The translations under genes were made by a program, and so were the position numbers. The notes beneath the pieces were generated by a model that ran no database searches, had not been told where the DNA came from, and saw nothing but the letters and a program-made list of their open reading frames with translations. From Planctomycetota bacterium (GTDB taxonomy: Bacteria; Planctomycetota; J058): DNA of 34,893 nt. Positions 6,426 through 26,118 of the stretch are shown here, in pieces. Every line of letters begins with the position of its first letter. The stretch's first letter is position 1. The stretch covers positions 1-34,893 of the forward strand of contig JAGQRJ010000487.1 in assembly GCA_020425635.1 (NCBI GenBank). The letters are read 5' to 3'.

Positions 6426-6680
6426 TTCCCCTCCGGCCGCGTAGGGCAAGTGTCCCACCCTCGGCGGAGGAGCACCAGTCGCGTCGACCCGAGGCGGGGG
6501 GGGGCGACGGCTAAACCGAGGCCAGGCGGATGGTTGTGCGCCAAACCGCGGGACTGTACGCCGCCGTGACGGACTCGACCCAACACCCCCGCGTCCATCG
6601 CGTAACTTACCCGAGACCCGATCCTCGGCGCAGTCGCTTGCCGAGTGTGGGTGCCTTCGCGAAGGGGTGGATTAAACGCA
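6426..6680. promoter_or_regulatory. Divergent intergenic region
   Basis: This 255-nt gap separates the zinc-finger gene (minus) from the PDZ operon (plus), so it should hold promoters for both directions. I found no convincing -35/-10 pair. The only notable structure is a perfect 12-bp palindrome CCTTCGCGAAGG at 6654-6665, lying 15 nt before the ATG at 6681 and covering the only SD-like bases (AAGGGG) of that gene. It could be an operator or a small hairpin that limits ribosome access. Confidence 0.35.
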
Positions 6681-8615: not shown

Positions 8616-8637
8616 GCGCCAGGCGAGGAGCACCACC

Positions 8638-9615
8638 ATGATTCGCAGCACTGGATTCCTGTTCGCGCTGGCCCTCGTCGCCAGCACGCACGCCGCAGCC
8701 GGGGGCTTCCTCGGCGTCTGGCTCAACAAAGACGCGCCGAGCGGCAAGGGCGCGCTGATCGAGGAGGTCGCTCCCGACTCGCCGGCCGCCAAGGCCGGGC
8801 TGCGCCCGGGCGACTACGTCGTCCAGGTCAACGGCAAGTCCGCGACCTCGAGCGCAGACCTGATCCAGGTCCTCGAGCGCGGCCAGGCGAAGCAGACCCT
8901 CGAGCTCATGGTCGAGCGCGACGGCTGGGGCAAGCGGGTCAGCGTGACCCTCGCCGCGCGCCCCGGCGAGAGCGCTCCGCCCAAGAGCGACGTGCCCCCG
9001 GCGACCCCCAACCGGCCTCGCGGCTTCCTCGGGATCATGCTCGCGCGGCCGTCGGCCGGCGAGTCGCGCCCGGTGATCAGCGGCGTCCAGCCCGGCAGCC
9101 CGGCCGCCCAGGGCGGCCTGCGCAACGGCGACGTGCTGACCCAGATCGGGAAGGTCGCGATCGAGGACACCGGCGACCTCATGCAGGCCCTCGCGGAGTA
9201 TGGGCCCGGCGACGCCGTCGCGATTCAGGTCGAGCGCGCGGGCAAGCAAGCGCAGCTGAAGGTGACCCTCGGCAACCCGCAGATCGAGGAGGAGACGCCG
9301 GAGCCTCGCGCCAAGCCGAGCGCGCGGACCCCCGCCTCGCCGGCCGAGAAGCTCCCGCCCTACCTCGGCGTGGCCCTCGACGACAGCGACGGGACCCTGA
9401 AGGTCGCCGAGCTCTCGGCGAACAGCCCCGCTGAGAAGTCTGGCCTGCGCAGCGGTGACGTCGTGCTCAAGGTCGACGACACCGCCGTGACCTCGATCGA
9501 GTCCTTCGTGAAGGCCATGGAGGGCCGCTACGCCGGCGACGTGATCGTGCTCCAGGTCACGCGCGACGGCTGGAAGAACGAAGTCCGGGTGACCCTCGGC
9601 AAGCGAGAGGAATAG
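8638..9615 (+). CDS. Secreted protein of three PDZ domains
   Basis: Predicted 325 residues. Residues 1-20 are a signal peptide (FLFALALVASTHAAAGG). The mature protein is three PDZ domains at about 22-110, 125-220 and 238-325, each with the typical carboxylate-binding start (GFLGVWL, GFLGIML, PYLGVAL) and the S-PAAKAGLRPGD type motif, separated by Pro/Ser-rich linkers. There is no protease domain. PDZ domains bind C-terminal peptides, and in HtrA proteins they recognise misfolded or tagged substrates; here they could present substrates or join partners. It starts 22 nt after the four-PDZ pseudoprotease and ends 1 nt before the next ATG, with GAGGAG as ribosome site, so it is part of the same operon. 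Confidence 0.9.
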   Translation: MIRSTGFLFALALVASTHAAAGGFLGVWLNKDAPSGKGALIEEVAPDSPAAKAGLRPGDYVVQVNGKSATSSADLIQVLERGQAKQTLELMVERDGWGKRVSVTLAARPGESAPPKSDVPPATPNRPRGFLGIMLARPSAGESRPVISGVQPGSPAAQGGLRNGDVLTQIGKVAIEDTGDLMQALAEYGPGDAVAIQVERAGKQAQLKVTLGNPQIEEETPEPRAKPSARTPASPAEKLPPYLGVALDDSDGTLKVAELSANSPAEKSGLRSGDVVLKVDDTAVTSIESFVKAMEGRYAGDVIVLQVTRDGWKNEVRVTLGKREE

Positions 9616-9616
9616 C

Positions 9617-10660
9617 ATGCGCACCTCGACCCTCCTTCCCCTGATCCTCGCGGCGGGGCTCGCGAGCGCCCTCGGCGACTCCACCGACTCGCCGCTGGCC
9701 GCGCTCGACGCGGCCACGCAGCAGGTCGTCGACCGGGTCCAGGCCGCGGTGGTCGGCCTCGACGTGGAGCGCACGAACTACGGTCCGCGCGACCTGACCG
9801 CCCCGGAGCGGCAGCTGCTCGGCGTGGTCATGCCCTACGACGAGCGCTACTTCGCGCGCCCCGAGGGCCCCTGCTCGGCGGTCGTGATCGGCCCGCAGCT
9901 CCTGGCGACCTCGTCCTACAACGTCGCCGGCGACGGTGAGATCACCGTCCACACCGCCGACGGTCGCGAGGTGCACGCGACTCGCCTGGGCACGGACAAC
10001 AACCTCGGCGTGACCCTGCTCAAGACCGAGCAAGACGTCGGCCCCGCCCTCGAGCTGCGCACCGATGAGCCGCGGGTCGGCGAGTTCGTCGTGCTGGTCG
10101 CCCGCAGCAAGGCCTCGACCCCCTACGTGACCCGCGGGATCGTGAGCGGCCTCGACCGCTTCGGCGGCGACGCCTTCGCGCACTCCGCGCGCACGAACTA
10201 CGTGAACACCGGCGGCGTGCTGGTGGGCCTCGACGGACGCGCGGTCGGGATCTCGACCCAGCACGGGCACCGCGCCCGGCAAGGGCAGAACTCGGGGGTC
10301 GGCTTCGCCGCCTCCTTCGCCGACCTCGCGCAAAACCTCGGCCAGCTCAAGGAGGGCAAGGACATCGCCAAGCGCAAGCTGCCCTTCCTCGGGATCTCCG
10401 CCGACCCGGAGACCTTCAACGGCGGCGAGCACGGCGTGCGGATCGGCCGCGTGGTCGAGGGCTCGGCGGCGAGCGAGGGCGGCCTGAAGGCGGGCGACTG
10501 GATCAAGATCTTCAACCAGGTCGAGGTGAAGAACTTCCTCGAGCTGCGCGAGGAGATCCTCAGCCTCAAGATCGGCCAGGAGATCCTGGTGACGATCGTG
10601 CGCGGCGAAGAGACGATCGACCTGACCGTGAAGCTCGGCAGTCGAGAGGAGCAAGATTGA
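9617..10660 (+). CDS. Secreted HtrA-like pseudoprotease with one PDZ domain
   Basis: Predicted 347 residues with a signal peptide (MRTSTLLPLILAAGLASALG). Residues about 35-240 align by eye with the HtrA protease domain, again without a usable triad: Y101 stands where the His should be (LLATSSYNVAG), G131 at the Asp position (NLGVTLLK, though D127 is nearby) and T198 at the Ser position (YVNTGGVLVGLDG for NPGNSGGPL). A single PDZ domain occupies about 255-343. The substitutions differ from those in the first operon gene, which suggests independent loss. Its stop (10658-10660) overlaps the next ATG (10660-10662), tying its translation to that of the intact protease. A Thr nucleophile is conceivable but the missing His and Asp argue against it. 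Confidence 0.87.
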   Translation: MRTSTLLPLILAAGLASALGDSTDSPLAALDAATQQVVDRVQAAVVGLDVERTNYGPRDLTAPERQLLGVVMPYDERYFARPEGPCSAVVIGPQLLATSSYNVAGDGEITVHTADGREVHATRLGTDNNLGVTLLKTEQDVGPALELRTDEPRVGEFVVLVARSKASTPYVTRGIVSGLDRFGGDAFAHSARTNYVNTGGVLVGLDGRAVGISTQHGHRARQGQNSGVGFAASFADLAQNLGQLKEGKDIAKRKLPFLGISADPETFNGGEHGVRIGRVVEGSAASEGGLKAGDWIKIFNQVEVKNFLELREEILSLKIGQEILVTIVRGEETIDLTVKLGSREEQD

Positions 10661-11922
10661 TGCGAACCCTGCTGATCGCCGCGGCGTTGGCCGCGTGCCC
10701 CCTGCTCGCCTGCGCGGAAGACGACGCCCTCGCGCGCGCCCTCGCGCTGCAGGCCGACCTGATCCAGCTCACCGACACGGTGTCGCCCGCGTTCGTCGCG
10801 ATCGGCGGCGGGTCGGGGGTGATCGTCTCCCCCGAGGGCGACGTGCTCACCAACCACCACGTCGCCGGCGGCCGCAAGGTCGGCGAGACGTGGCAGATCA
10901 TGGGTCAGGGCGGGAAGATCCTGACTGCGGTCATGGTCGGCACCGACGAGGGCGGCGACATCTCGCTGCTCAAGATCCAAGACGCGGGCCCGTTCCCCTT
11001 CGTGCCCCTCGGCGACTCGGACAAGGTCCAGGTCGGCGACCCGGTGGTCGCGCTCGGCAACCCCTTCGGGTTCAGCAAGGACGGCAGCCCGCACGTGACC
11101 ATGGGGATCGTGAGCGCCGTACACCGCTTCCAGGGGGGCTACTCGGACGCGATCCAAACCGACACCGCGATCAACCCCGGCAACTCGGGCGGTCCGCTGA
11201 TCAACTTCGACGGCGAGCTGATCGGGATCAACGGCAAGATCAACTTCCGCTGGGGCAACCGGGCCAACTCGGGGATCGGCTACGCGATCCCCGCCAACCA
11301 GATCCGGACCTTCCTCCCAGCCTTCCGCGCCAAGGGCGAGGTCGACCACGGCACGCTCAAGGGCGTGGGCCTGGGCGACACCCCCGACGGCGGACGCGGC
11401 TGCCTGATCCAGCGGATCAGCAGCTCCTCGAGCGCCTATCAAGCGGGGCTCCGCCAGGGCGACCTAGTGCTGCTCGCCGACGGGCGCGAGGTCCACAGCG
11501 CGGCGCGGCTGCGGGGGATCCTCGGGACCTTCCCGGCGGGCTCGAAGCTCGACCTGGTCGTGACCCGGGGCGACGCCAAGCACACCGTCTCGGTGGCGGT
11601 GGAGTCGACCGCGGTCGCTCAGCGGGTCGCGGTCCGGGGCGGGTGGCTCGGCGTGCGCATGCAGCCCCACGACGAGGGCGTGGAGATCGCGAGCGTGACC
11701 CAGGACTCACCCGCGGCCAAGGCCGGGGTCGAGGCTGGCGACGTGATCACCGCGCTCGAGAGCGAGGGCCAGCGCACCGAGGTCAAGAAGACCGTCGACT
11801 TCATCAAGGTGCTGGGCAAGCTCAAGCCCGGGGCGCAGCTGACGCTGATCGGCAAGCGCGGCGCCCAAGAGATCACCGTCGGGGTGACCCTCGGCGAGTG
11901 GCCGAAGCTCAACCGGCGCTGA
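10660..11922 (+). CDS. HtrA/DegP-type serine protease with two PDZ domains
   Basis: Predicted 420 residues; an envelope quality-control protease. All triad residues are present: H67 (VLTNHHVAGG), D100 (GGDISLLKI) and S176 (INPGNSGGPL). The oxyanion-loop neighbourhood GNPFG and the TMGIVSA segment are also conserved. PDZ domains lie near residues 225-310 and 320-412. The N-terminus MRTLLIAAALAACPLLACAEDD is a signal peptide; LLAC could be a weak lipobox (C19), so it may be membrane-anchored or freely periplasmic. The ATG at 10660 was preferred to the TTG one codon earlier because it overlaps the previous stop and has GAGGAG about 8 nt upstream. Last gene of the operon, followed within 30 nt by a strong terminator. 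It is the only member expected to cleave peptides. Confidence 0.95.
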   Translation: MRTLLIAAALAACPLLACAEDDALARALALQADLIQLTDTVSPAFVAIGGGSGVIVSPEGDVLTNHHVAGGRKVGETWQIMGQGGKILTAVMVGTDEGGDISLLKIQDAGPFPFVPLGDSDKVQVGDPVVALGNPFGFSKDGSPHVTMGIVSAVHRFQGGYSDAIQTDTAINPGNSGGPLINFDGELIGINGKINFRWGNRANSGIGYAIPANQIRTFLPAFRAKGEVDHGTLKGVGLGDTPDGGRGCLIQRISSSSSAYQAGLRQGDLVLLADGREVHSAARLRGILGTFPAGSKLDLVVTRGDAKHTVSVAVESTAVAQRVAVRGGWLGVRMQPHDEGVEIASVTQDSPAAKAGVEAGDVITALESEGQRTEVKKTVDFIKVLGKLKPGAQLTLIGKRGAQEITVGVTLGEWPKLNRR

Positions 11923-12192: not shown

Positions 12193-15100
12193 GTGCACAA
12201 GCGCTTCGCGACCGCTACGGTCATGCTCGCCCTGCTCGGCGGATGGGTTGGGGCCCAAGAGCCCCTCGACCTGCCCGAGCCCACCAACGAGCGCTTGTTC
12301 GGCTTCGAGTTCGAGTTCGCGGGCGCCCGGGACCGGATCCTCTCCTTCGAAGAGATGCCCTGGGAGAACTACGAGCGCCTGATGCGCGTCGTGGTCGAGC
12401 ACTACGGCGGCAACCCGGCGGACATTCGCAAGGTCGACTTCATGAAGGAGACCGGGAACCTCGAGAAGTGGCCGACCGGTGAGCGCCCGCTGTTCCGCGC
12501 GGAGTGGACCGACGCCAAGGGCCGCAAATGGAAGATCGAGCCCGAATACGTCCAGTCGACCGGCCTCGACGGCTACGAAATGGTCACCCCGCCGCTGGAC
12601 GACCCCAAGGACCTGCGCGAGATCATCGACAAGATCGCGGCCTCGGGCCTGGTCAAGGAGGGCCTCAAGTCGGGCGTGCACCTGAACCTCGACGGCCGGA
12701 GCCTGACCCACGGCAACGACGCGCGCGCGCTCACCAACCTGATCCTGATGCACGAGAGCTACGAGCCCATGCTGCGCCGGATGTTCCGTCCGGTGCGCGG
12801 CGGAAGCCCGACCAACCGCTTCGCGCGCTCGATCGCGACCGACCACGAAGACCTCCTGCGTGAGCTCGACGCGCTGCCCCAGGAGGAGCGCACCCGCGAG
12901 AAGCTCGAGGAGCTGTTCAGGGCGCGCACCGAGCGCGAGGCCGCGCTGCACGAGGCAGAGGTTCGCGGCGAGGGCTCCTGGACCAAGCTCTGGAAGTACC
13001 GCTCGCTGAACCTGGCGAAGGTGCTGGACATCAACGAGCTGCACAACGGCAAGGCGGGCGTCGTCGAGTTCCGCATGTTCGACCTCGACGTGTTCAAGAA
13101 CCCCGACGCCCACGAGATGCAGGCCAAGATCTACCGCGCCATGGTCCGCCAGGCCGAGCTCATGGCCGAGCGCGGCGAGACCTTCCGCTACCGCCCGCGC
13201 AACCCCGCCCCCGAGGGCGCGGATATCGCGGTCTACAACACCCCCAAGGATCCGGCGGAGGCCAAGCGCGCCGCCGCCGAGATGCTCCAGACCATGGGCC
13301 TCAACCCGGCGGAGTTCACGGACTACCTCGACCGGACCCTGGTCCGTGAGGTGCTCCCCACCCGCACCGGGATCGAAGACGCCCTCAACCGCCTGACCGA
13401 CGCCAAGCTCGTCCACAACGGCAAGCCCTTCACCTACGGCTTCGAATACGAGGGCCGCGGCGCAGACGCGGTGAAGATCATGGTCCCCACCGACGCCCAG
13501 GAGCGCGCCAGCTGGGACGCGAAGACGGTCAGCGAGAAGAAGGCCTACTACCAGCGGACCGTCGGCAACAGCCCCGAAACGATCGACTCCTACTTCGAGC
13601 CCGACACCCGCCTGTGGTGGCTCGACCCTTACTGGTACACCGAGGGCACCGGCAACTGGGAGATCCACTCCAAGGTCTTCGACAACCTTGAGGAGGCCAT
13701 GCGCGCCATGCGCGAGGCCAAGACCCTGGCCGGGGCCTCGGGCAAGGGCTTCCACCTCCACATGCGCGACAACGGCCCCGATTGGGAGAAGCTCGAGGCC
13801 CGCGGGAGCGAGTTCGCCGACTTCATCGAGCGCGCCTCCGACTGGGTGTGGCTCCAGCGCGCCCGCCGCCTGAAGACCATGATCGGGATCAAGTCGTGGT
13901 CGAACGCGCGCCTCTCCCCGGACGAGGTCAACAAGCTCTCCCAGCTCGGGAACACCGGCCGGGCCACGATCCGGACCCAGGTCAACCGCTCGGAGAACTA
14001 CATCGACGTCGAGATCCGCGGCCTGACCAAGTGGGTCGACGACATCGAGCTCCTCGCCAAGCTGATCAGCAACGGCCTGGTCACCGGCAACTTCGGCGAG
14101 TGGAAGCACACCGACAACCCGCTCAAGGGCAAGACCAAGGGCGAAGGCTCGGTGAACTTCGCCGACTTCATGGAGGACTACTCGCGCAACGTCGAGGGCA
14201 AGTCACTGAGCAACGCGGAGCGTCGCCTCTACGACCGTCTCCAGCACGACTACATCAAGGCTGGCGACGGCGGCAACGGCTGGGGCAGCTCGCGGATCTC
14301 CGCCACCCAGCTCAACGTGGCCACCCCGCTCCAGCCCTGGCACATGGACCAGGCCCTCGACCCCTACCTGCGGCGTGACCTCTACTTCCGCCAGCAAGAC
14401 TACGCCCGCAGCCTGCGCTACACGATGAACAAGGTCATGCGTGGTGAGTACGGCGTCGACATGGAGGTGCTCTCCCCCGAGGGCTTCACGAACACCATGG
14501 GCCTCGAGCCGGAGCTCGCCGAGAAGCTGGTCACCGCGCGGGAGCTCGCGGGCGGGACCCTCGGCGTGGAGGACGCGCTGCGCATGGTCGCCAGCGGCGA
14601 CCCCGAGGCCGTCTCGCGCCTGAGCCCGGTCGACGTCAACGCCAGCGACGCGATCGTCGCCGAGCGCTTGAAGCTGACCCCTGAAGAGCTCGCCAAGCTG
14701 CGCGCCCACGCCAACAACGGCGACATCGTCGAGGCCCTCGAAGCCGCGGGGCTCGACGAAGCGCGCGTGCTCGAGGCCGTCGAGCGCTCGGGCGTGATCG
14801 ACATGAACAGCGTCGAGGGTGAGGCCCTCGCCAAGCGCCTGGGGCTCACCCCGAGCGAAGTCACGCGCCTGCTCGCCTACCGCGACGCCCACGAGGTGAC
14901 CTCCGAGGAGGCCATGCGCGCCGCAGGAGTGAGCGAAGCCGGCGTCGAGCGCCTGCTCGAAGAGGCCACCCGCAGCGTCGACCTCTCGACGGCCAACCGC
15001 GCACAGCTCGTCGAGGCCGGGTTCACCCCCGAGGAGGCGAAGAAGGTCGTGGCGGCGCGCAGCGCGCAGTATTTCCGCACCTACGAGGACCTGGCCAAGG

Positions 15101-18100
15101 CCGGCGTCGGCTCGGACGCGATCGAGTCCCTGCGCGGCAGCGACCGGATCAACAAGCGTCAGCTCAACACCTTCAGCGCCGAGGAGCTCGTGGCCCGCGG
15201 CGGGATCTCCCAGCGAGACGCCGAGCGGATCGTGCGCTACCGCAGCGGGATCAGCGAGTTCACCCCCGAGCTCCTCTCGGAGGTCCTCGACGACGCCAGC
15301 CGCGCGCGGGAGCTCAGCGCCCGCACCCGGCCCCTGGACCTGCAGACCGCCAACGTCGACGAGCTCGTCGAGCGTGGGATCAACCAGCGTGACGCCGAGC
15401 GCCTGGTGCGCTACGCCCGCGCCAACAACCTCAGCACGCCCAGCGGGCTCGAGGGCTGGGAGTCGCTCTTCCAGCAGCTGCGCGAGAAGGGCGTGATCCG
15501 CGGCGCCCGCCGCGTCCGCGACCTGGCCCAGCGGGGCAACCTCGAGAGCATCGCGATCGAGAGCGCGCCCGTCGAGAGCCTGATGCGCTTCGGACTCAGC
15601 GAGGCCGAGGCCAAGGAGGTCGTGCGCCTGCGCGACAGCCAGCCGCTGAGCGCCGAGTCGCTGGTCGAGGGCGGCTTCAGCGAGGCCGAGGCCAAGCGCC
15701 TCGCCGGCTTGATGCACGAGATCGACCCGCGCACCGCGAGCTACGCCGAGCTCGAGGCCCGCACCGGGCTCTCGCGCGCCGAGCTCGCCCGGGTGATCGC
15801 GCTCAGCGGCACCCAGGTCGACGTCGCGCCGGCCGAGGTCCTCGCCGAGCGCTTCGGGATCGCCCCGGCCAAGGCCTCACGCCTGGTCGCGCTCCGCGAC
15901 GGCAAGACCTTCGCAGAGGCCCTGGCGGAGGTCGGCCACGCCGACAAGCTCGACGCGCTGGTCGACCAGGCCAAGGGCGTCGTGATCGGCAACGAGAGCG
16001 TCTCGATCGCCGAGCTCGCGCGCCGCCTGCAGATCAGCCGCGAGACCGCGCGCAAGATCGTGCGCTACCGCGACGCCCACGACCTCGACAGCGTCTCGGC
16101 GCTGCGGCAGGCGGGCCTCTCCCAGGCCGACGCCGAGCGGATCTTTCCCCTGCTGGGCGACGGCGAGGCCCTCCGCGTGGCCGACGCGCCCGCCGAGCTC
16201 GGCCTCAGCGCCGAGGAGGCCAAGCGCCTCGAGGTCGCCCGCACGGCGGTCGAGTTCGGGGCGTTCCCCGAGCTGGTCGGCCAGGGCGTCGACTTGACCA
16301 CCGTCCGCGCCCTCCAGAGCTCGGACCTCAGCACCCAGGACCTCAAGACCCTGAGTGTGGAAGAGGTCGCCGAGCGCGCGAACATCTCCCGCGAGCGCGC
16401 CGAGGCGCTCCTGCGCGTGACCCAGGTCCACGACGTGGAGTCCCTGCGCGGGCTGCAGTCGGTGCTCGGCGCCGAGCGCGGGCTCGAGGTCTACGCCAAG
16501 GCCAAGCTCCGCCGCAGCAGCGGCCTCGCCCAGCTGAGCGAAGTCTTCGGCGAGGCGACCGCCAAGAAGCTGGTCGACTTCCGCGAGTCGCACTCCTTCA
16601 GCGCCTACAACAACGAGTCCAGCGTGCGCGCCCTCGGCACGAACGGGATCGTGCGCAGCGACGTGGTCGACAAGATCCTCACCTTCTCGCCCAAGGTCGA
16701 CCTCGAGACCGTGACCGTGGAGGAGCTGACCGGGCCGCGCTTCAAGCTCCCCGAGCGCGTCGCCCGCCGCCTCGTGGCGCTGCGCGACAGCAAGCCCGTG
16801 CGCACCGTCGAGGAGCTGCGCGAGCTGGGCCTGACCAAGGCCGAGGCCACCCGGGTGCTCGAGCGTTCCAAGCCGGTGAACGTCGAGACCGCCACCGCCG
16901 AGGAGCTGCAGCGGGCCGGCTTCACCGAGAAGCAGGCCGAGGAGCTGCTCGAGTTCCGCACCAAGCTGCAGAACGCTCCGACGCTCGACGCCACCGAGAT
17001 CAGCCGCCAGGTGCGCTTCAAGGTCAAGAAATGGGCGCTCGAGAACCAGCTCTCCGAGGGCCTGCTGCGCTCGCTGATCCCCGAGGCACGCCCGGGTGAG
17101 GTCCGCTTCGCCAGCGAGCTCCCGACCGAGGTCGCCCCGACCGAGGTGACCGAGGCCCGCGAAGGCGAGGCCCGCCGCGGCGTGACCGACGTCCTCGAAG
17201 GCCGCGAGGGCACCGTGAGCGAGGCCGAGGTCCGCGAGGGCGAGGGCTTCTCGAACCGCCGCGAGCGCGCCGGCTCGAGCGAGGTCGACGCCCGCTCGGC
17301 CGACGCCATGAAGGGCGTGTTCAACGCCGTCCGCACCAGCGCGCTCGCGCGCTGGGAGGCCCGGATCTACGGCCTGCCCGAGGGCGCGGATCGCGCGGCC
17401 TTCGAGGCCGGGCGCGAGACCCTGCGCAACCTCGAGCTCGAGATCGTGCGCACCAGCGACGTGCTCGCGCAGATCAGCGGGACGAAGGTCCAGGTCTCGG
17501 TCGGGCTCTACAACGAGCTCCTGTCGCGCGCCCCCGCCGGCGCCAACGCGACCCGCTTCGCCCTGCGCGGCCTGGCGCTGATCCTCGGCCACGAGCTCGC
17601 CCACGCCGGCGGGGTCAAGGTCGAGCGCCCCGCGGACATCGAGGGCCTGCGGATCGCCCGCGACTCGGCGGTCGGTGAGGCCTCGGGCAAGTTCACCCGC
17701 GCCGAGATCCGCGAGACCCTGGGCGCCTTCGACAAGCCCCTCGGCGAGAGCCGGATCTCGAACGCGCTCTACCGCATGAAGAACCTGATGCGCTACGGCC
17801 GGGTGGCCGCGCGCACCAACGCCCTCGAGGCGGCCGCCGAGGGCTCGCCCGAGGCAGACCCCTACGCGCAGTATCGTCGCGCCGACGGCACCGTGCGCTG
17901 GTCGCGCGTGGCCCGCGCCCGCGCCGCGGGCGAGATCAAGGGCGGCGCCCACTTCGCCCTGGCCCTGTTCTTCAAGGAGGTCTCGGTGCTCGTCGCCAGC
18001 GGCGACCGCGAACGGATGAGCGAGTTCTTCGACTACCTCGCCTCGACCGACTTCTACAAGGACTACGGGCTGTTCGTGGCCGGCGCGCGCATGGGCGAGG

Positions 18101-19509
18101 TCGCCTACGTCAAGTCGCTGCAGCGCTACGTCAAGCCCAAGTTCGTCAACTCGCTGCTCAAGACGAGCCTCGTGCTCGGCGCCGGTATCGCGCTGCCCAT
18201 GATCGTGGAGGGCCACTTCGAGTGGAAGTCGTTCACGATCACCCTCGGCTCGCTCGGCCTCTCCAGCGCCCTGGTCAAGGGCGCGGTCAGCGGCGGCAAG
18301 AGGATCCGCGGCCTGATGACGATCAAGGAAGCCCAGACCGCAGGCAAGCTGGCGCGCGTCGGCAAGCTCGCGCGCCTGGGCGGCTGGGTCTACACCGCGG
18401 CCGAGCTGGCGGTGGTCCTGATCATCGCCGAGGAGATCGAAGAGGTCGTACACCACGAGCTCGACGAGCGCGCGGCCAAGGCCGAGCTGCGCGACGCCGG
18501 GCAGAAGCTGCTCGCGGCCGTGCGCGACCCCGGCGCGACCCCGGCCTCGGTCGAGGCCGCGGCCCGCGAATACCACGAGGTCTACGGCGCCTGGCGCAAC
18601 TTCCTCTACGCCCCGATCCAGGCCGAGGAGCTCTGGCTCGCCCAGAAGGCCGAGGGCATGGCCGAGAAGGCCAAGGAGGCCGAGGACAACCGGGCCGAGG
18701 CGCTCTCGCGGCTCGAGCGTCTGCCCCGCCTGAAGGCCAAGATCCTCGCCGACCACGGCTCGCTCGACGGCTACGTCGCGCACCTCGTGGCGGAAGACGA
18801 AGCCGAACTGACCGAGACCATGAACGGCTACCTCACGACCTTCAACCAGCGCCGCGAAGAGGGCCTGCGCGCGGTCTACGAGGATCACGAGCGCGGGACC
18901 CCGCTCGTCGCCCCCCTGGGCGGCGCCGCGCTCGACGCGCTGACCGCCCCCGCCGGCGCGGGCACGGCCTTCAGCCGCATGGCTCGCCCCGCCGAGGTCA
19001 AGCGCTTCGAGGACGCCCTCGGGACGCCGAGCAAGAACCGCTTCGAGACCTACGGCGACGAGGCCCTGCTCCTCGAGCAGCTCGAGGCCTCGCTGCGCGG
19101 CGCTGAGCGCGCCCCGCTCGCGGACGCGATCAAGACCGTGCGTGAGCTCGTCGGGCGGACCCTGATCAAGGATCAGGAGCTGGTCAACGGCAACGGCCAG
19201 GTCAACATGGGCGGCGCCGACGACGCCCCCGCGGGCCTCCCGGCCGTGCCGAGCCTGCCGGGCGACGGCGCGAGCGAGGGCCTGACCGAGGGCATGGAGG
19301 ACGTGCTCCCCGACTTCCCGGCGGTGGCCTTCCTCAAGAGCGAGGGCCGCGTGCTCAGCCGAGCCACCCAGGGCGCGACCGAGCTGGGCGTGGTCGAGGA
19401 GGGCGGCGCGATCTTCGCCACCGGGCCCGCGGCCAACGGCTTCGTCCCGGTCGAGTTCGACGGCAAGCTCGGCTACCTGCCCGCGGTCCAGGTCGACTTC
19501 CTGCGCTAG
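12193..19509 (+). CDS. Giant secreted amidoligase-like / HhH-repeat / HExxH protein
   Basis: Predicted 2438 residues, not recognised as a described protein. The GTG start at 12193 has GGAGGA 5 nt upstream and begins a clear signal peptide (MHKRFATATVMLALLGGWVG, then AQ); an in-frame ATG at 12142 would bury it. Order of domains: amidoligase-like I (G37-FEFEF-42, E129-MVTPPL, H163 in GVHLNLDG, E292-F-R294); amidoligase-like II (G416-FEYEG, E490-IHSK, H521/H523 in GKGFHLHM, E607-I-R609); about 14 ComEA-like helix-hairpin-helix repeats (770-1610); charged linker; HExxH (H1800-E1801-H1804); hydrophobic segments near 1989-2007, 2015-2035 and 2065-2083; coiled coil about 2090-2260; C-terminal SH3-like domain (2378-2438). 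I found no cysteine anywhere. Amidoligases join carboxyl and amino groups using ATP; an ATP-dependent step outside the cytoplasm would be odd, so either a binding role, an unusual location, or a misjudged signal is possible. Confidence 0.85.
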   Translation: MHKRFATATVMLALLGGWVGAQEPLDLPEPTNERLFGFEFEFAGARDRILSFEEMPWENYERLMRVVVEHYGGNPADIRKVDFMKETGNLEKWPTGERPLFRAEWTDAKGRKWKIEPEYVQSTGLDGYEMVTPPLDDPKDLREIIDKIAASGLVKEGLKSGVHLNLDGRSLTHGNDARALTNLILMHESYEPMLRRMFRPVRGGSPTNRFARSIATDHEDLLRELDALPQEERTREKLEELFRARTEREAALHEAEVRGEGSWTKLWKYRSLNLAKVLDINELHNGKAGVVEFRMFDLDVFKNPDAHEMQAKIYRAMVRQAELMAERGETFRYRPRNPAPEGADIAVYNTPKDPAEAKRAAAEMLQTMGLNPAEFTDYLDRTLVREVLPTRTGIEDALNRLTDAKLVHNGKPFTYGFEYEGRGADAVKIMVPTDAQERASWDAKTVSEKKAYYQRTVGNSPETIDSYFEPDTRLWWLDPYWYTEGTGNWEIHSKVFDNLEEAMRAMREAKTLAGASGKGFHLHMRDNGPDWEKLEARGSEFADFIERASDWVWLQRARRLKTMIGIKSWSNARLSPDEVNKLSQLGNTGRATIRTQVNRSENYIDVEIRGLTKWVDDIELLAKLISNGLVTGNFGEWKHTDNPLKGKTKGEGSVNFADFMEDYSRNVEGKSLSNAERRLYDRLQHDYIKAGDGGNGWGSSRISATQLNVATPLQPWHMDQALDPYLRRDLYFRQQDYARSLRYTMNKVMRGEYGVDMEVLSPEGFTNTMGLEPELAEKLVTARELAGGTLGVEDALRMVASGDPEAVSRLSPVDVNASDAIVAERLKLTPEELAKLRAHANNGDIVEALEAAGLDEARVLEAVERSGVIDMNSVEGEALAKRLGLTPSEVTRLLAYRDAHEVTSEEAMRAAGVSEAGVERLLEEATRSVDLSTANRAQLVEAGFTPEEAKKVVAARSAQYFRTYEDLAKAGVGSDAIESLRGSDRINKRQLNTFSAEELVARGGISQRDAERIVRYRSGISEFTPELLSEVLDDASRARELSARTRPLDLQTANVDELVERGINQRDAERLVRYARANNLSTPSGLEGWESLFQQLREKGVIRGARRVRDLAQRGNLESIAIESAPVESLMRFGLSEAEAKEVVRLRDSQPLSAESLVEGGFSEAEAKRLAGLMHEIDPRTASYAELEARTGLSRAELARVIALSGTQVDVAPAEVLAERFGIAPAKASRLVALRDGKTFAEALAEVGHADKLDALVDQAKGVVIGNESVSIAELARRLQISRETARKIVRYRDAHDLDSVSALRQAGLSQADAERIFPLLGDGEALRVADAPAELGLSAEEAKRLEVARTAVEFGAFPELVGQGVDLTTVRALQSSDLSTQDLKTLSVEEVAERANISRERAEALLRVTQVHDVESLRGLQSVLGAERGLEVYAKAKLRRSSGLAQLSEVFGEATAKKLVDFRESHSFSAYNNESSVRALGTNGIVRSDVVDKILTFSPKVDLETVTVEELTGPRFKLPERVARRLVALRDSKPVRTVEELRELGLTKAEATRVLERSKPVNVETATAEELQRAGFTEKQAEELLEFRTKLQNAPTLDATEISRQVRFKVKKWALENQLSEGLLRSLIPEARPGEVRFASELPTEVAPTEVTEAREGEARRGVTDVLEGREGTVSEAEVREGEGFSNRRERAGSSEVDARSADAMKGVFNAVRTSALARWEARIYGLPEGADRAAFEAGRETLRNLELEIVRTSDVLAQISGTKVQVSVGLYNELLSRAPAGANATRFALRGLALILGHELAHAGGVKVERPADIEGLRIARDSAVGEASGKFTRAEIRETLGAFDKPLGESRISNALYRMKNLMRYGRVAARTNALEAAAEGSPEADPYAQYRRADGTVRWSRVARARAAGEIKGGAHFALALFFKEVSVLVASGDRERMSEFFDYLASTDFYKDYGLFVAGARMGEVAYVKSLQRYVKPKFVNSLLKTSLVLGAGIALPMIVEGHFEWKSFTITLGSLGLSSALVKGAVSGGKRIRGLMTIKEAQTAGKLARVGKLARLGGWVYTAAELAVVLIIAEEIEEVVHHELDERAAKAELRDAGQKLLAAVRDPGATPASVEAAAREYHEVYGAWRNFLYAPIQAEELWLAQKAEGMAEKAKEAEDNRAEALSRLERLPRLKAKILADHGSLDGYVAHLVAEDEAELTETMNGYLTTFNQRREEGLRAVYEDHERGTPLVAPLGGAALDALTAPAGAGTAFSRMARPAEVKRFEDALGTPSKNRFETYGDEALLLEQLEASLRGAERAPLADAIKTVRELVGRTLIKDQELVNGNGQVNMGGADDAPAGLPAVPSLPGDGASEGLTEGMEDVLPDFPAVAFLKSEGRVLSRATQGATELGVVEEGGAIFATGPAANGFVPVEFDGKLGYLPAVQVDFLR

Positions 19510-19542: not shown

Positions 19543-19615
19543 TGGAGACGAGGGGGCTCGAACCCCTGACCTACGGCTTGCAAAGCCGTCGCTCTCCCAG
19601 CTGAGCTACGTCCCC
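19543..19615 (-). tRNA. tRNA-Ala(TGC)
   Basis: A 73-nt cloverleaf on the minus strand. Acceptor GGGGACG pairs with CGTCTCC and includes G3:U70, the alanine identity pair; the anticodon stem ACGGC/GCCGT encloses the loop TTTGCAA with anticodon TGC; the T arm is AGGGG-TTCGAGC-CCCCT and the discriminator is A. CCA is not encoded. It has its own promoter just upstream (19625-19652). Confidence 0.97.
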
Positions 19616-19624
19616 GAGACACGG

Positions 19625-19652
19625 ATTGTAGGCACGATCCTCCCCCAAGCAA
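19625..19652 (-). promoter_or_regulatory. Promoter of tRNA-Ala
   Basis: Reading the minus strand: -35 TTGCTT (19652-19647), 16-nt spacer, -10 TACAAT (19630-19625). A start site about 7 nt beyond the -10 lies 2-3 nt before the mature tRNA 5' end at 19615. The match is four and five of six to the sigma-70 consensus hexamers, which is notable in such GC-rich DNA. Confidence 0.7.
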
Positions 19653-19797
19653 GCCAGCGCCTACCTACGCGAAGCCTTCGCCGCCCTGCTGCGAAGGGGC
19701 GCGAAACGCCCTGCGCCTGCGGCCCCTTGGGGTGAGCTCGAGCGGCTTTGCCGCGAGAGCGAGGGCGCTCGGGACGAGCCCCCTGAGACACACGCAA

Positions 19798-19824
19798 CGA
19801 GGGCGGCCTGAAAGGCCGCCCTCG
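19798..19824 (-). terminator. Hairpin after tRNA-Ile
   Basis: A perfect 12-bp stem (19798-19809 with 19813-19824, CGAGGGCGGCCT) and a 3-base loop, starting 2 nt past the tRNA-Ile 3' end. On the minus strand it is followed by TTGCGTGTGTC, a weak T-rich tail. It probably ends the tRNA-Ile transcript, consistent with tRNA-Ala having its own promoter. The remaining 19653-19797 stretch has no feature that I can support. Confidence 0.65.
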
Positions 19825-19826
19825 TA

Positions 19827-19900
19827 TGGGGGTACCAGGATTCGAACCTGGGACCTCATCGTTATCAGCGATGCGCTCTAACCAGCTGAGCTATACCCCC
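19827..19900 (-). tRNA. tRNA-Ile(GAT)
   Basis: A 74-nt cloverleaf on the minus strand. Acceptor GGGGGTA pairs with TACCCCC; D arm AGCTCAGCTGGTTAGAGC; anticodon stem CATCG/CGATG encloses CTGATAA with anticodon GAT; T arm CCAGG-TTCGAAT-CCTGG; discriminator A. CCA is not encoded. It precedes tRNA-Ala in transcription order, as in many rRNA operon spacers, but no rRNA is present here. Confidence 0.97.
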
Positions 19901-19912
19901 TTGGGAGAGTGG

Positions 19913-19940
19913 AGTATAGCCCTCGGGCGGGGCGCGTCAA
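19913..19940 (-). promoter_or_regulatory. Promoter of tRNA-Ile
   Basis: Reading the minus strand: -35 TTGACG (19940-19935), 16-nt spacer, -10 TATACT (19918-19913), five of six matches in each hexamer to the sigma-70 consensus. The start site would fall a dozen bases or less before the tRNA 5' end at 19900. The -35 hexamer contains the TGA stop codon of the amidase gene (19939-19937). Confidence 0.8.
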
Positions 19941-20950
19941 TCCCCGCGAGGAGGAGCCGGGGTCTGCCGCGCGAGCTGGAGCAGGCGCTCCCACTGGAAG
20001 GCCGGCCCCGGGTCCTGCTTGCCCTCCGACACGTGGTAGTGGCCGATCACCCCATGGAACGCGTCGAGCTCGGCAGGGGTCAGCACCCGCCACAGGACCT
20101 CGCCCCCGGCGTCGCGGGGCACCTCCAGCTCGAGCCGCGGAAACAGGTGCGCCAGGGCGCCCACGAGCTTGCCCAGGGTCTCGTACTGCGCCTCGGTGAA
20201 GTCGTACTGGCTGTAGGGCTTGCCGTGGATCTCGCCTTGCACCGGGTCGGGCCGCGCGGGGCGGGCGACGAAGCCCGCGGGCAGGTCGCCCTCGAACGGG
20301 CCCAGGTCGAAGACCGCGCCCTCGGCGTCCTTCGAGTAGGCCGCGTCGATCGCCTCGCTCCCGAGCACCCCCGGGTGGGCGATCTCGATCCCCACCGAGT
20401 GGTCGTTGGCCGCCCCGGCGTGGCGCGCGCGCGCGGTGAGGTCGAGGGTCTGGTAGAGCGTGCCGTCGAGGTCGAGCAGGAAGTGGCAGCTCAGCCCGCG
20501 CTGGTCGTGCAGGACCTTGAAGCAGTTGCGCGAGGTCCACGCCGCGTCGTAGTGCACGACCACCTGGTGCACCTGGAGCGCGAGCAGCTCGGGGGTCCAG
20601 CCGCGCGCCTCGACCACCCGGGCCACGTCGGGTTGGATCCTGCGCCGCCCGCCGTCGGAGTAGCGCTTGGGCGTGTCGCAGCCCGGCGCGGGGGAGGTGG
20701 GCAGCGCCGCGTCGCTGAAAGCGCAGCGCTCGCTGTAACCGTCGTAGCCTGCTGCGTCCTTCCAGGTCACCACCGGCGCGCCGATGTCGAAGGGGACCCC
20801 AGCCACGACGATGCTCGTGCCCCGCGAGGGCTCAGGCTTGGAGGCGGACTCCTCCTCGGCGTCGGGCGGGGTCTGCTCGTCGTTGGAGGTGCAGCCCGAG
20901 GCGAACAGCGCCGCCGCGGTCACAGCGACCGTCGCCAAACTCAGCTTCAC
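19937..20950 (-). CDS. AmpD/AmiD-type N-acetylmuramoyl-L-alanine amidase lipoprotein
   Basis: Predicted 337 residues. The GTG start at 20950 follows GAGGAGG by 6 nt and begins a lipoprotein signal peptide with lipobox (FASGC, lipidated Cys near residue 20), then an acidic linker. The amidase_2 domain shows three zinc-ligand candidates: H133 (QVVVHYDA), H177 (RHAGAANDHSVGIEI) and D313, with H304 in the late GHYHVSEGKQDPGP motif (H304 and D313 correspond to the His and Asp of AmpD). Family members cut the amide bond between N-acetylmuramic acid and the stem peptide; a lipid anchor suggests work on wall fragments or sacculus in the envelope. It is longer than AmpD (about 180) because of inserts around residues 190-250. 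No terminator separates it from tRNA-Ile. Confidence 0.9.
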   Translation of the reverse strand: MKLSLATVAVTAAALFASGCTSNDEQTPPDAEEESASKPEPSRGTSIVVAGVPFDIGAPVVTWKDAAGYDGYSERCAFSDAALPTSPAPGCDTPKRYSDGGRRRIQPDVARVVEARGWTPELLALQVHQVVVHYDAAWTSRNCFKVLHDQRGLSCHFLLDLDGTLYQTLDLTARARHAGAANDHSVGIEIAHPGVLGSEAIDAAYSKDAEGAVFDLGPFEGDLPAGFVARPARPDPVQGEIHGKPYSQYDFTEAQYETLGKLVGALAHLFPRLELEVPRDAGGEVLWRVLTPAELDAFHGVIGHYHVSEGKQDPGPAFQWERLLQLARQTPAPPRGD

Positions 20951-21011: not shown

Positions 21012-22175
21012 TCAGCCCACCGAATAGGGCAGCAGGCCGACCGCGAACTCAGTGGCCCGCGGGATCCGCTGCGCGGGGTCGGGCTCGACCGCCTGCTCGA
21101 TCAGCGCGATCAAGCCCGGGGCGAGGTGCTGCTCGCGCACCAGGGGAGTCAGGTCCGGCGGCTGCCCTTCGAGCTTGAGCCTGGTCAGGCGGTCTCCGAC
21201 CTCGACGTAGGGCCGCTTGCCGCTGAGCACCTCGCAGAGGATCACCCCCAGGGCGTAGAGGTCCGACTGCTCGGTCGTGGGCGCGCCGCGCAGCACCTCG
21301 GGGGCGACGTAGGCCAGCGTGCCGCCCCGCTCGCCGCCGCTGCGTCCGGCCAGGCCGAAGTCGATCAGCACGGGCCACTGCGGGCCGAGGACCACGTTCG
21401 AGGGCTTGAGGTCCCCGTGCACCACGCCCTTGGCCGCCAGGTGGGAGAGGGTCCCCGCGATGTGTCGGCACACCCGCGCCGCCTCGGGCGCGGGCAGCGG
21501 CCCGTGCTTGAGCCGCTCGGCCAGGGTCTCCCCCTCGATCAGGTCCATGGCGTAGTAGATCCGCCCGCCGTCTTCGCCCACGTCGCGGACGCCGACCACC
21601 CCGGGCACGTCGGCCAGGCTGCGTAGCAGCCGCGCCTCCGCGAGCAGGCGGTCGACCGCGGGCTGCGGCGCCGAAGGCGGGAGGGCCTTGATCACGCAGG
21701 GGGTCTCGTCGTCGAGGCGCCGCGCGCGATAGAGCACCCCCTGCGCGTTGCGGCCGAGCTCGCTCACGATCGCGTAGCGCTCCCAGGGGGGGCCCTCGGC
21801 GCTGCTCCGCCGGCGCAAGAAGAGGGTCACGCGGTCGCGCAGCTCGGGCAGCTCGATCGGCTTGGGGAGGTAGTCGTCTGCGCCGGCCTCGTAGGCGCGC
21901 GCGACGTCGTCGAGCCCGTCGCGCGAGCTGACCACGACGATCGGGAGCTGCACCCGCGGGTGCTGCTCGCGGAGCTTGGCGCAGAGCTCGATCCCGGTCA
22001 TGCCGGGCAGCATGACGTCGGTGACCACGAGGTCCGGGCAGCGCGTCTCGACGGCCTCCAGGCAGGCCTCGGCGCTGCCGAAGCGCACGAGCTCGGCGCC
22101 CAAAGGCTCGAGCCCGCGCTGGAGCTGCTCCTGGGTGGCGGGGCTGTCCTCGACCAGATAGATCAGCTCGCTCAT
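21012..22175 (-). CDS. Receiver-domain / Ser-Thr kinase fusion
   Basis: Predicted 387 residues, cytoplasmic. Residues 1-125 are a CheY-like receiver with acidic pocket E9-D10, phospho-acceptor D53 (VVTDVMLPGMTG), S83 and K105 (YLPKPIE). Residues 131-387 are a Hanks-type kinase: K163 (CVIKAL), catalytic D255 in HGDLKPSN, D272 of DFG and the APE motif (YVAPEVL). Two deviations: the glycine loop reads GRNAQG (second Gly replaced by Asn) and the catalytic loop is HGD, making it a non-RD kinase that may not need activation-loop phosphorylation. The fusion suggests that a histidine kinase controls the Ser/Thr kinase through D53. The ATG overlaps the stop of the large kinase gene (ATGA), so both are coupled. 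Confidence 0.93.
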   Translation of the reverse strand: MSELIYLVEDSPATQEQLQRGLEPLGAELVRFGSAEACLEAVETRCPDLVVTDVMLPGMTGIELCAKLREQHPRVQLPIVVVSSRDGLDDVARAYEAGADDYLPKPIELPELRDRVTLFLRRRSSAEGPPWERYAIVSELGRNAQGVLYRARRLDDETPCVIKALPPSAPQPAVDRLLAEARLLRSLADVPGVVGVRDVGEDGGRIYYAMDLIEGETLAERLKHGPLPAPEAARVCRHIAGTLSHLAAKGVVHGDLKPSNVVLGPQWPVLIDFGLAGRSGGERGGTLAYVAPEVLRGAPTTEQSDLYALGVILCEVLSGKRPYVEVGDRLTRLKLEGQPPDLTPLVREQHLAPGLIALIEQAVEPDPAQRIPRATEFAVGLLPYSVG

Positions 22176-25100
22176 CGCAGTCGCAGCGCCTCGAACAGCT
22201 CAGGGTCGCTCTGCAACGGCCCGAGCTCGGGGACGTTCTTCAGCTGGGCTTCGCGCAGGCTGCCCCCGCGAATCAGCTGCAGCAGCCGCCCGCGGGCCGC
22301 GTCGAGGTCCCCCGAGAGGGCGTCGAGGCAGGCGCGCCAGTAGCTGGAGAGCGGGCCGCCCTCGAGCAAGGAGTCGGCCTTGGCCAGGGCCGCGCGCGCG
22401 TCGTCCAGCCGGCGGACCTTGATGTAGCAGGCCGCTATGTAGCACTGCGCGACGTAGGAGCGCCCCCTGCACATGGCCTGCGCCTGCTCGAACCAGTCGA
22501 GGGCCTCGTCGTAGGAGCCGAGGCGGAAGAAGGCGTAGCCCTGGAGGAACCAGCCCACGGCGAAGTCGGGGCGGCTGACGCGGAGGCGCTGCACGCCGGC
22601 CTGGAGCAAGGGAAAGAGCTGAGGGAAGTTCAGCAGGCGCTGCTCGATCTCCCAGTAGTGGCGGGTCAGCTTGGGGTCGAGCTCGGAGGCCACGAACAGA
22701 TCCGCCACCGCGCCCGCGAGCTCGTCGGCGCCGTTCTCGATCCTGCTGTTCGAGCGCACCGTCCAGCCCAGGGGGGCGCGCGGGTCGGCGGCGATCCCGC
22801 GGTTGGCGAAGTGCGTGGCCTCGGGCAGGCGGTTGCGGACGTGCAGCTCGCGGGCCGCGGTGTTGAAGACCAGCGCCCGCCGTGGGTCACGGTAGCCCTC
22901 GTAGAACAGCTCGATCGAGCGCTCGATGGCGGCGGGCAAGGCCTCACTCTTCAGCGCGCGCAAGAGCTGGACGCGGAGGGTCGCGACGGCGTGGCGCGGC
23001 GGGCCGAGGGTCCGCTCGCGGTCGAGCTCGGTCAGCGCCTCTGCGTAGCGTCCGAGGCCCTGCAGGCAGCGCGCGCGCTCGAGCCTCAGCTCGGACTCGT
23101 CGCGCGGGCTCCAGGCGCCCCCCGCCAGGGCCTCGTCCATGATCTGCAGGCCCACGTCGGGCTGGCGCCGCAGGTCGCGCTCGATCGCCGCCAGGCTCAG
23201 CAGCGCGCGCACCCGGTGGGGGTCTTGCTCCGCGAGCACCGCGTAGTGTTCGGCGGCGGTCTCGTAGCGGCCCTGGAGGTAACACATGCTCCCGAGGTAG
23301 GCCCGGGCCTCCAGCAGGTTGGGGTCGAAGGCCAGCGCGCGGCTCAGCCACACCCGCGACGACTCGATCTCCCGCGCCCAGTCCACGCCAGCGTCGGACT
23401 CGAGCGCGCGCAGCAGGCGCACGAAGAACCGGCGGCCCTGAGCCGAGGACTGCTCGGCGAGCTCGAGCGTGTCGGTCGCCAGCGAGTGGGGCAGGAGCTC
23501 GATCCGCTGGTTGCAGCGAATGTGCTCCTGCTGGTCGGCGATCGCATCGGGGTCCCCCAGTTCGAGCCGCAGGCGGTAGCGATACCCGTAGGCCGCCGAG
23601 CGCTCGGGCGCAGCGACGATCGCGGCGTCGAGCTCGGCCCGCGCCTGGGTGAGGTCGCCCCGCGCCCAGGCCACGCGCCCCAGGCCCACGTGCCCGGCGT
23701 AGGCCCCGAGCGGGATCGCCTGCATCGCCTGGAACAGCCCCTCGGCCTCGTCGAGGAGCCCCTCGCGCAGGGCCAACTCGGCCAGGCCGCTCTGGGGCGC
23801 AAGGGCCCCTGGGGCGAGCTCGAGCGCGGTCTGAAAGCAGCTGCGCGCCTTGCTCGGCTGCGGGCGACGTCCGAGGAGCTCCAACCGACCGAGGATCGTC
23901 CAGGCGTTGGCCCGGTCCGCGGGAGCGATCGCGTCGCCCCGCAGCGCGTAGCGCAGGTCGGCCTCGGCGCCGGCGTCGGCGAAGTCGTTGGCGGCCACGT
24001 CGTGCACGAGGAAGCGGATCCGCCCGCGAAGCAAGCGCGCGGCGGGGAGGTCCTCGGCGTGATCGAGGTCCTCCAGCGCGGCGTTGTAGTCCTTGCCCGC
24101 GACGTGGACCTCCGCGCGCAGCGCGTAGCAGAAGGGGCTCGCGGGGTCGCGCCGCACGGCGCCATCGGCGATCTCCAGCGCCTCGGAGGCGCGACCCTGG
24201 GCGAGCAGGGCGCGGCAGAGCCCGAGCCTGGGCCGCGCGTCGTCGATCAACAGGCGGCTGGCCTCTTCGAGCAGCGCCGCGGCCTCGTCGAGCTCGCCGT
24301 CGGCGAGGCGCGCCTCCCCCAGGGCCAGCACCGCGAGGGGGTAGCGCCCGCCCACCGCGTCGGCGGCGCGGGCGGCCTTGATCGCCGGCGGCAACAAGCG
24401 CAGGGCCTCCGCCAGCCGCCCGTCGCGGTGCAGGAGCAGGCCCTCGGCGAGCGCGGCGCGCGGGTCCCCGGGGTCGGCGCGGGTGGCCGCGCGGAAGTCG
24501 GCGAGCGCCAACCCACGCTTGCCCTGGCTCTCGAGCAGCGCCCCGCGGGCCATCAGCCCGCCGGCGTTGCTCGGGTCGCGGGCGAGGGCCAGGTCGAGCT
24601 GCCGCAGCGCCGCGGGGACGTCGTCTCGCGCGAGGAGCAGGTTGGCCTTGCGCAGGTGGGCCTCGGCGTCGCTCGGCCAGAGCGCGATCGAGCGATCGAG
24701 CATGTCCTCCGCCTGCTCGAGGTCGCCCGCCTCCTCCAGACGAATCGCCTCCAGGAGCAGCTCCCCCGCGCTCCAGCGCCGCGACGCGGTGCGCGCGATC
24801 CACCCGGCCCCGAGGGCCAACACCGCCGCCAAGACCCCGATCGCCAGCGGGCCGCGGTAGCGGCGCAGGCGCCGCGCCAGGCGCCGCACGCGCCCGAGGG
24901 GTCGCGCGAGGGTCGGCTCGCCGCGCAGGAAGCGCCCCAGGTCTTCGGCGAAGGCCCCGGCGCTGGAGTAGCGTCGAGCGGGGTCGCGCTCGAGGGCGGT
25001 CTCGACCACCCCCGCCAGGGCCGCGGGGATCTCGGGGCGCAGCGCGCGCAGCGGCGGCGGGTCCTCCTTCACCAGGCGGTCGAGGACCTGGGCCGTGTCC

Positions 25101-25984: not shown

Positions 25985-26118
25985 GACGCTCCAGCATACC
26001 CGCCACCCCGGCGAGCCGCTCGATCGATTCGCCCTAACTTCTTGGACGCCAGCCCGTTCATGGGCCGCGGAGGCGGCTCGGGCGGGCTCCAGCGAGGAGC
26101 GCGAACCAGAAAGCACGC

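Follow-up and report, generated by a model that had tools for sequence, protein, structure and literature searches.

The giant gene and its domains

We analysed a stretch of 34,893 nucleotides from a Planctomycetota bacterium (GTDB lineage J058; contig JAGQRJ010000487.1 of assembly GCA_020425635.1), referred to below as the window. It contains a giant gene whose product a preliminary description had read as an exported machine made of amidoligase-like, helix-hairpin-helix (HhH), metalloprotease-like and SH3-like parts. Our main finding is that this gene is a member of a previously unrecognised and much larger family within one planctomycete lineage, in which unrelated enzyme domains (heads) each sit on a shared C-terminal protease-plus-membrane module and are predicted to be exported. 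The features of the gene and of its surroundings are collected in Table 1.

A protein of this size and composition could be an artefact of assembly. However, the full domain order (two amidoligase parts, HhH array, zincin metallopeptidase-like domain and C-terminal module) is also present in single frames from other genomes, such as L025 (2025 residues) and L022 (1994 residues), which are about 43-60% identical to the giant protein. Because separate assemblies repeat this order in single frames, chance, a frameshift artefact or a chimera of separate genes can be excluded; the frame is intact and the domains listed in the preliminary description mostly hold, from the signal peptide to the SH3-like end. 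When the first 736 residues were compared with related genomes, five other genomes proved to have one to three copies each, and the gene's own genome a second copy. The named relatives with more than 30% identity are all from Planctomycetota metagenome-assembled genomes or from a marine metagenome-assembled genome.

Table 1. Features of the giant gene and of the surrounding window (residues refer to the giant protein).
Feature	Residues	Position	Strand	Basis or remark
Giant gene	1-2438	12193-19509	+	open frame, 2438 residues, GTG start
Signal peptide	1-21	12193-12255	+	KR, hydrophobic core, small-x-small; predicted cleavage between VGA and Q
First amidoligase domain (Amidoligase_2, GS/GCS fold)	25-345	12265-13227	+	Pfam, phrog, Foldseek, motifs
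Second, divergent amidoligase-like domain	400-745	13390-14427	+	within the same GS-fold model; motifs
HhH-type repeat array	870-1591	14800-16965	+	HHH_3 profile; about 12 units of about 60 residues
Zincin metallopeptidase-like domain	1679-1884	17227-17844	+	about 200 residues; conserved in 20 members
HExxH zinc-site motif	1800-1804	17590-17604	+	continues as GxxxExxAD
Constant C-terminal membrane module	1885-2343	17845-19221	+	profile matches; 55-sequence alignment A2
Hydrophobic half of the module	1900-2080	17890-18432	+	4-5 moderately hydrophobic helices; family-averaged hydropathy
SH3b-like C-terminal addition	core about 2381-2429	19333-19479	+	similarity to the end of L162
Protein with two PARP-type zinc-finger matches		5433-6458	-	zf-PARP E 7e-14; unusual in bacteria
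Run of four exported trypsin/PDZ genes		6645-11922	+	HtrA type (one with PDZ only); immediately precede the giant gene
tRNA-Ile and tRNA-Ala genes, near each other		19543-19900	-	downstream of the giant gene
N-acetylmuramoyl-L-alanine amidase gene		19937-20950	-	downstream of the giant gene
Response-regulator/Ser/Thr kinase fusion beside a very large kinase with TPR-like repeats		21012-26116	-	
Another kinase gene		starts about 32215	+	

The signal peptide finds further support in the homologs, which carry A-x-A-Q cleavage sites (ALAQ, AYAQ or ARAQ) at the equivalent position. When the whole protein was scanned, PF12224 (Amidoligase_2) matched residues 33-279 with an E-value of 1e-7 and 32.3 bits, against a cut-off of 22, and the same profile matches 10 of 10 aligned homologs; phrog_2443 'amidoligase enzyme' matches the first domain as well (E 4e-8). 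An AlphaFold2 model of residues 22-761 has a mean predicted local distance difference test score (pLDDT) of 77.6, and a Foldseek search with it returned YbdK as the top PDB match with a probability of 1.00 and a modest E-value of 5e-4. Two-domain guanidino kinases, McsB and glutamine synthetase (GS) were among the further matches, all within the GS/guanidino-kinase fold class. Despite the modest E-value we accept the assignment to the GS fold, which the preliminary description had anticipated, because fold class, profile and motifs agree.

Residues E39, E41, E118, E129, H163, N273, E292 and R294 of the first domain are invariant among 10 homologs, and the motifs GxExE, ExxTP, GxHxxxD, RxxxN and EFR are invariant or nearly so. 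Most of these motifs are found again in an amidoligase of a Terrisporobacter phage. The first copy is thus an Amidoligase_2 member with a complete motif set and is predicted to perform ATP-dependent carboxyl-amine ligation. The second copy keeps GFExE, GFHLH and EIR in 9 of the 10 aligned homologs, has been lost or is degenerate in L017, L023 and L028/L038, and in the same genomes also forms, by itself, the head of a second type of gene. Both of the amidoligase-like domains proposed earlier therefore stand on the model and the motifs, but the first alone is recognised by Pfam and the second, without a match there, is the more divergent.

Compared with Amidoligase_2 and YbdK-type carboxylate-amine ligases (for the GS-like amidoligases see Iyer et al. 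2009, as cited in PMC10945688), the giant protein has the family match above cut-off, the GS/GCS fold and the complete motifs in its first copy. It differs from them in being predicted to be exported, in the duplication, and in the fusion to repeats, a zincin and a membrane module. The phage relatives are unlike it in another way, as they are small stand-alone genes adjoining a gamma-glutamyl cyclotransferase gene; the Terrisporobacter phage (L164, PP197246.1) has two amidoligase genes in this arrangement.

The long HhH array is borne out by an HHH_3 match with an E-value of 1.5e-31, and TIGR00426 was matched as well. Its earlier label as a DNA-binding type of repeat does not hold, however. 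The units are degenerate, the canonical GhG hairpin is absent from every mapped unit of the giant protein, and the length of the array among homologs ranges from none to about 12 units. The likeness to ComEA-type HhH_3 repeats is thus one of profile match, whereas the array itself is long, tandem and without the DNA-binding hairpin. Given the missing hairpin and the variable length we regard it as a spacer or an array for binding, not as a DNA-binding part, and a role in DNA handling, which had been one of the options considered for this protein, is weakened accordingly.

Enzyme heads on a shared C-terminal module

A search with residues 1678-2438 as the query showed that the part shared with other proteins is residues 1885-2343, which we call the constant module. 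More than 80 profile matches to it were found in eight genomes of the order, with 8 in the genome of the giant gene, 17 each in G002 and G006, 14 in G004, 11 in G005, 10 in G003, 6 in G008 and 5 in G001. The preliminary description had noticed hydrophobic segments in the C-terminal third, but not that this third is what stays constant across a large family of paralogs. For the main set we collected 73 proteins with the module, and nearly all of them end in it, the S8 subtilase protein, where it lies mid-protein, being different in this respect.

The N-terminal parts of these 73 proteins fall into many unrelated groups, with at least 10 unrelated enzyme heads. Those identified by Pfam are HD_4, transglutaminase, S8 subtilase, M14/AstE, flavin amine oxidase, Glu/Leu/Phe/Val dehydrogenase, a full polyphosphate kinase and Fic, while a SelO-like head gave a weak match just under the cut-off, a PT-HINT-like head in the giant gene's own genome (L084) also fell just below it, and several heads had no Pfam match. 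Clear signal peptides are seen on proteins with Fic, SelO-like, HD, amine-oxidase, M14, transglutaminase and dehydrogenase heads; the polyphosphate-kinase gene is clipped by its contig and its start lies outside the sequence. Motif residues are mostly intact, including C-H-D of the transglutaminase, HPFWDANGR of Fic and the HD motif in most of the HD heads. The HD-like head of L080, in the same genome as the giant gene, is degenerate and has lost the motif. The sequences thus describe a family of predicted exported proteins in which each unrelated head is joined to the same protease-plus-membrane module.

Some members occur as conserved tandem pairs. In one (L080-L083), a gene for a single amidoligase, zincin and module is followed by one for an HD-like head and module; this pair is retained in several genera and adjoins an oligopeptide ATP-binding cassette (ABC) transporter in three genomes (L080, L082, L083). 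Another pair of module proteins (L103, L114, L123, L131, L097, L134) belongs to a large head family without a Pfam match.

The HExxH motif noted earlier is a conserved metallopeptidase motif and no chance occurrence. Its longer form, HExxHxxGxxxExxAD, which includes a downstream candidate for the third ligand, is invariant in 23 aligned domains, namely those of all 20 proteins with a zincin in the 73-protein set and those of 3 additional homologs. By this motif the domain is a predicted zincin metallopeptidase. Where the zincin is present it always stands immediately before the constant module, whatever the head. A model of the zincin with the membrane module gave a pLDDT of about 85 for the zincin part, and a fold search with it was uninformative.

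In the module itself, the alignment and the family hydropathy indicate that the hydrophobic half carries conserved charges and that the second half is hydrophilic and helical. The hydrophobic segments of the giant protein described before are confirmed near residues 1987-2005 and 2062-2080. No credible relative of the module was found in Pfam, NCBIfam or the PDB, and among solved structures there were weak helical matches only, such as EsxA with an E-value of 0.03, which we do not trust. An earlier description of the module was not found in the literature, where the search covered open-licence papers. The module was also unmatched in a search of phages and plasmids, and a scan of IMG/VR with A1 as the query gave no match. 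An origin from a phage or plasmid was therefore set aside, as the module is unmatched there and what was found in a phage was one weak amidoligase match.

Behind the module the giant protein has an SH3b-like end that is specific to this copy, since the stretch is absent from other full-length members. Pfam has no match to it, but it is 43% identical over 49 residues to the C-terminus of L162, an exported protein of the same genome, and this similarity bears out the SH3-like domain proposed before. By eye L162 (138-1772, minus strand) is an M64-like peptidase, and it is the nearest relative of this end that was found.

Distribution and possible exchange of heads

Among 392 planctomycete genomes scanned, the constant module is strong in this order only. 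The scan of the wider phylum scored four candidates per genome, and distant members may be undercounted by it. Weak, partial but collinear matches were found in G164 (L156, L160), where tandem genes share the hydrophobic half of the module and carry M28 and transglutaminase-elicitor heads according to Pfam. Further heads in these genes look nucleotidyltransferase-like and ADP-ribosyltransferase-like, by eye only. In G033, an RHS-repeat protein from a different planctomycete family (L159, 1054-5688, minus strand) has a C-terminal end that resembles the second half of the module, in a match that is low-scoring and collinear. These distant relatives point to conflict-type proteins. A match in G161 was rejected as a coiled-coil coincidence in an SMC-like protein.

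Heads and modules may not always have been inherited together. Between G002 and G004, which represent two genera, orthologous heads of the SelO-like, dehydrogenase and M14 types share 60-63% identity and their modules 48-53%; these modules are closer to modules on other heads in the same genome, and the module tree tends the same way. For the amine oxidase and U11a groups, head and module are plainly co-inherited.

Genomic neighbourhood

The exported HtrA-type genes upstream of the giant gene were considered as functional partners, and this was not retained because such genes recur near two homologs only. Carriage by an extracellular contractile injection system or a phage tail was likewise rejected. 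Many relatives have two phage-tail sheath genes, but these do not track the family, as G008 has the family and no sheath genes, and G010 and G011 have sheath genes and not the family. The tRNA-Ile and tRNA-Ala genes downstream are the usual pair of the rRNA spacer, here without rRNA genes in the window.

Discussion

The family invites comparison with several known systems. Bacterial polymorphic toxins have a constant N-terminal trafficking region, a variable C-terminal toxin, a processing peptidase between the two and an adjacent immunity gene (PMC3482391). Our family resembles them in having a constant part under many enzymatic heads, an export signal and a predicted processing peptidase beside the constant part, and in one PT-HINT-like and one RHS case. 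The polarity is reversed, however, with a variable N-terminus and a constant C-terminus, and several heads, such as the dehydrogenase and the polyphosphate kinase, are not typical toxins. As the polarity is reversed and immunity genes were not seen, the family is not a polymorphic toxin by these tests, though its mode of action may be similar. Phage-tail-like (PVC) toxins have a PVC-metallopeptidase, also a zincin-type domain within a constant region beside diverse effector domains, with the signature HExxHxxQ-E (PMC3482391). In our family G replaces Q in 23 of 23 aligned domains, the zincin is C-terminal to the head and, as described above, sheath genes do not follow the family.

Some toxins have a built-in processing protease, and in the large clostridial toxins the order is enzyme head, protease and hydrophobic membrane part. 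The family has the same order, but its protease is of a different class and there is no C-terminal receptor-binding repeat domain, so that the likeness is one of order and we claim no sequence relationship.

We favour, with a probability of roughly 0.45, the reading that these proteins are exported effectors, built of a head, in some members a spacer and a processing protease, and then the membrane module, and that they act where ATP is available. The signal peptide would carry the protein over the inner membrane, the constant module would insert into or through a membrane, and the zincin would cleave beside itself, releasing the head, which would then act where ATP or NAD is present. The most likely such place is another cell's cytoplasm; there the amidoligase could couple a carboxyl with an amine of a peptide or amino acid at the expense of ATP. 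This reading is favoured because heads that transfer AMP (Fic, SelO-like), a dehydrogenase and an amidoligase dependent on ATP would make sense outside the cell chiefly if they acted in another one. It is supported by the one module carrying so many unrelated heads with mostly intact motifs, by the signal peptides on heads of normally cytoplasmic classes, several of which depend on nucleotide cofactors that are scarce outside a cytoplasm, by the invariant zincin motif directly before the membrane module, by the links to conflict proteins (PT-HINT-like, M28, transglutaminase-elicitor and RHS) and by the orthologous heads that sit on modules closer to those of same-genome paralogs. Secretins of the type II kind in 12 of 12 genomes of the class are consistent with it. 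Conflict, one of the functions suggested earlier for the giant protein, is thus the one we favour.

Several observations weigh against the effector reading. The signal peptides were called by eye and pattern, without a trained predictor, and as evidence for export they reach the periplasm only. The hydrophobic half of the module was modelled with a pLDDT below 50. No immunity-type gene was seen adjoining the giant gene, and genes with heads of the SelO, dehydrogenase, M14, transglutaminase and amine-oxidase types had no conserved neighbour. Approximately unbiased (AU) tests that hold the module pairs together gave p 0.25 for SelO and p 0.055 for the dehydrogenase, and neither grouping is rejected at 5%, so exchange of heads on a constant part, the way in which polymorphic toxins diversify, is suggested but not significant. 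The stability of the single-amidoligase and HD pair across genera, beside the transporter in three genomes, would better suit a resident role.

Such a role is indeed what a second reading proposes. The module would be a sorting or anchoring tail that fixes the enzymes in the periplasm or an internal compartment, where they would process imported peptides, amino acids or polymers, with the zincin as a quality-control or maturation protease. The signal peptides, the orthologs kept across genera, the Opp/Dpp type of the transporter beside the amidoligase and HD pair, the digestive heads (S8, M14, M28 and transglutaminase) and the HtrA proteases beside the giant gene and near two homologs all agree with this, and we regard it as a possible if tentative explanation. 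It has difficulty with the Fic, SelO-like, HD, polyphosphate kinase, dehydrogenase and amidoligase heads, which would be short of ATP or NAD in an ordinary periplasm, and the RHS and PT-HINT links would be unusual for housekeeping. The same lack of ATP bears on the wall or surface machine of the preliminary description, in which amidoligase, repeats and protease work together on peptidoglycan or surface peptides. The part of that description that stands is the exported multidomain protein with an amidoligase, based on the signal peptide and the GS fold. A wall machine specific to the giant gene would fit the export signal, the peptide-type bonds formed by amidoligases and the N-acetylmuramoyl-L-alanine amidase gene on the other strand, but amidase and HtrA genes are not found consistently as neighbours, and the zincin and membrane module are common to paralogs with unrelated heads. 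Because the C-terminal third is a constant part under many and too diverse heads, a dedicated wall-polymer ligation machine fails to explain the family, and we consider it very unlikely. We give slightly less credit still to the idea that most of the heads lack activity and function in binding or as surface decoys while the family diversifies as surface antigens or adhesins. The L080 head without its HD motif and the second amidoligase that is lost or degenerate in three members could be read that way, whereas most heads retain their motif residues.

A further reading is that the zincin-plus-membrane module is a new general unit for delivery or docking, which would carry any preceding enzyme across or onto membranes with a polarity opposite to that of polymorphic toxins. 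As a part of the same proposal, this unit would be limited to a single planctomycete order, and other parts of the phylum would have distant, partial relatives of it. We consider this reading rather doubtful at present.

If the effector reading is true, one large-genome planctomycete lineage would hold up to 17 exported enzymes per genome on a shared tail. Among these would be enzyme classes (amidoligase, Fic, SelO-like, HD, polyphosphate kinase and dehydrogenase) whose presence outside a cell is sensible only on delivery to another cytoplasm or to an ATP-containing compartment. The role of the shared C-terminal module would then become a concrete and testable question for these uncultured bacteria. 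The family would also serve as a template for finding effectors that would be overlooked by current toxin searches, which are built on constant N-termini.
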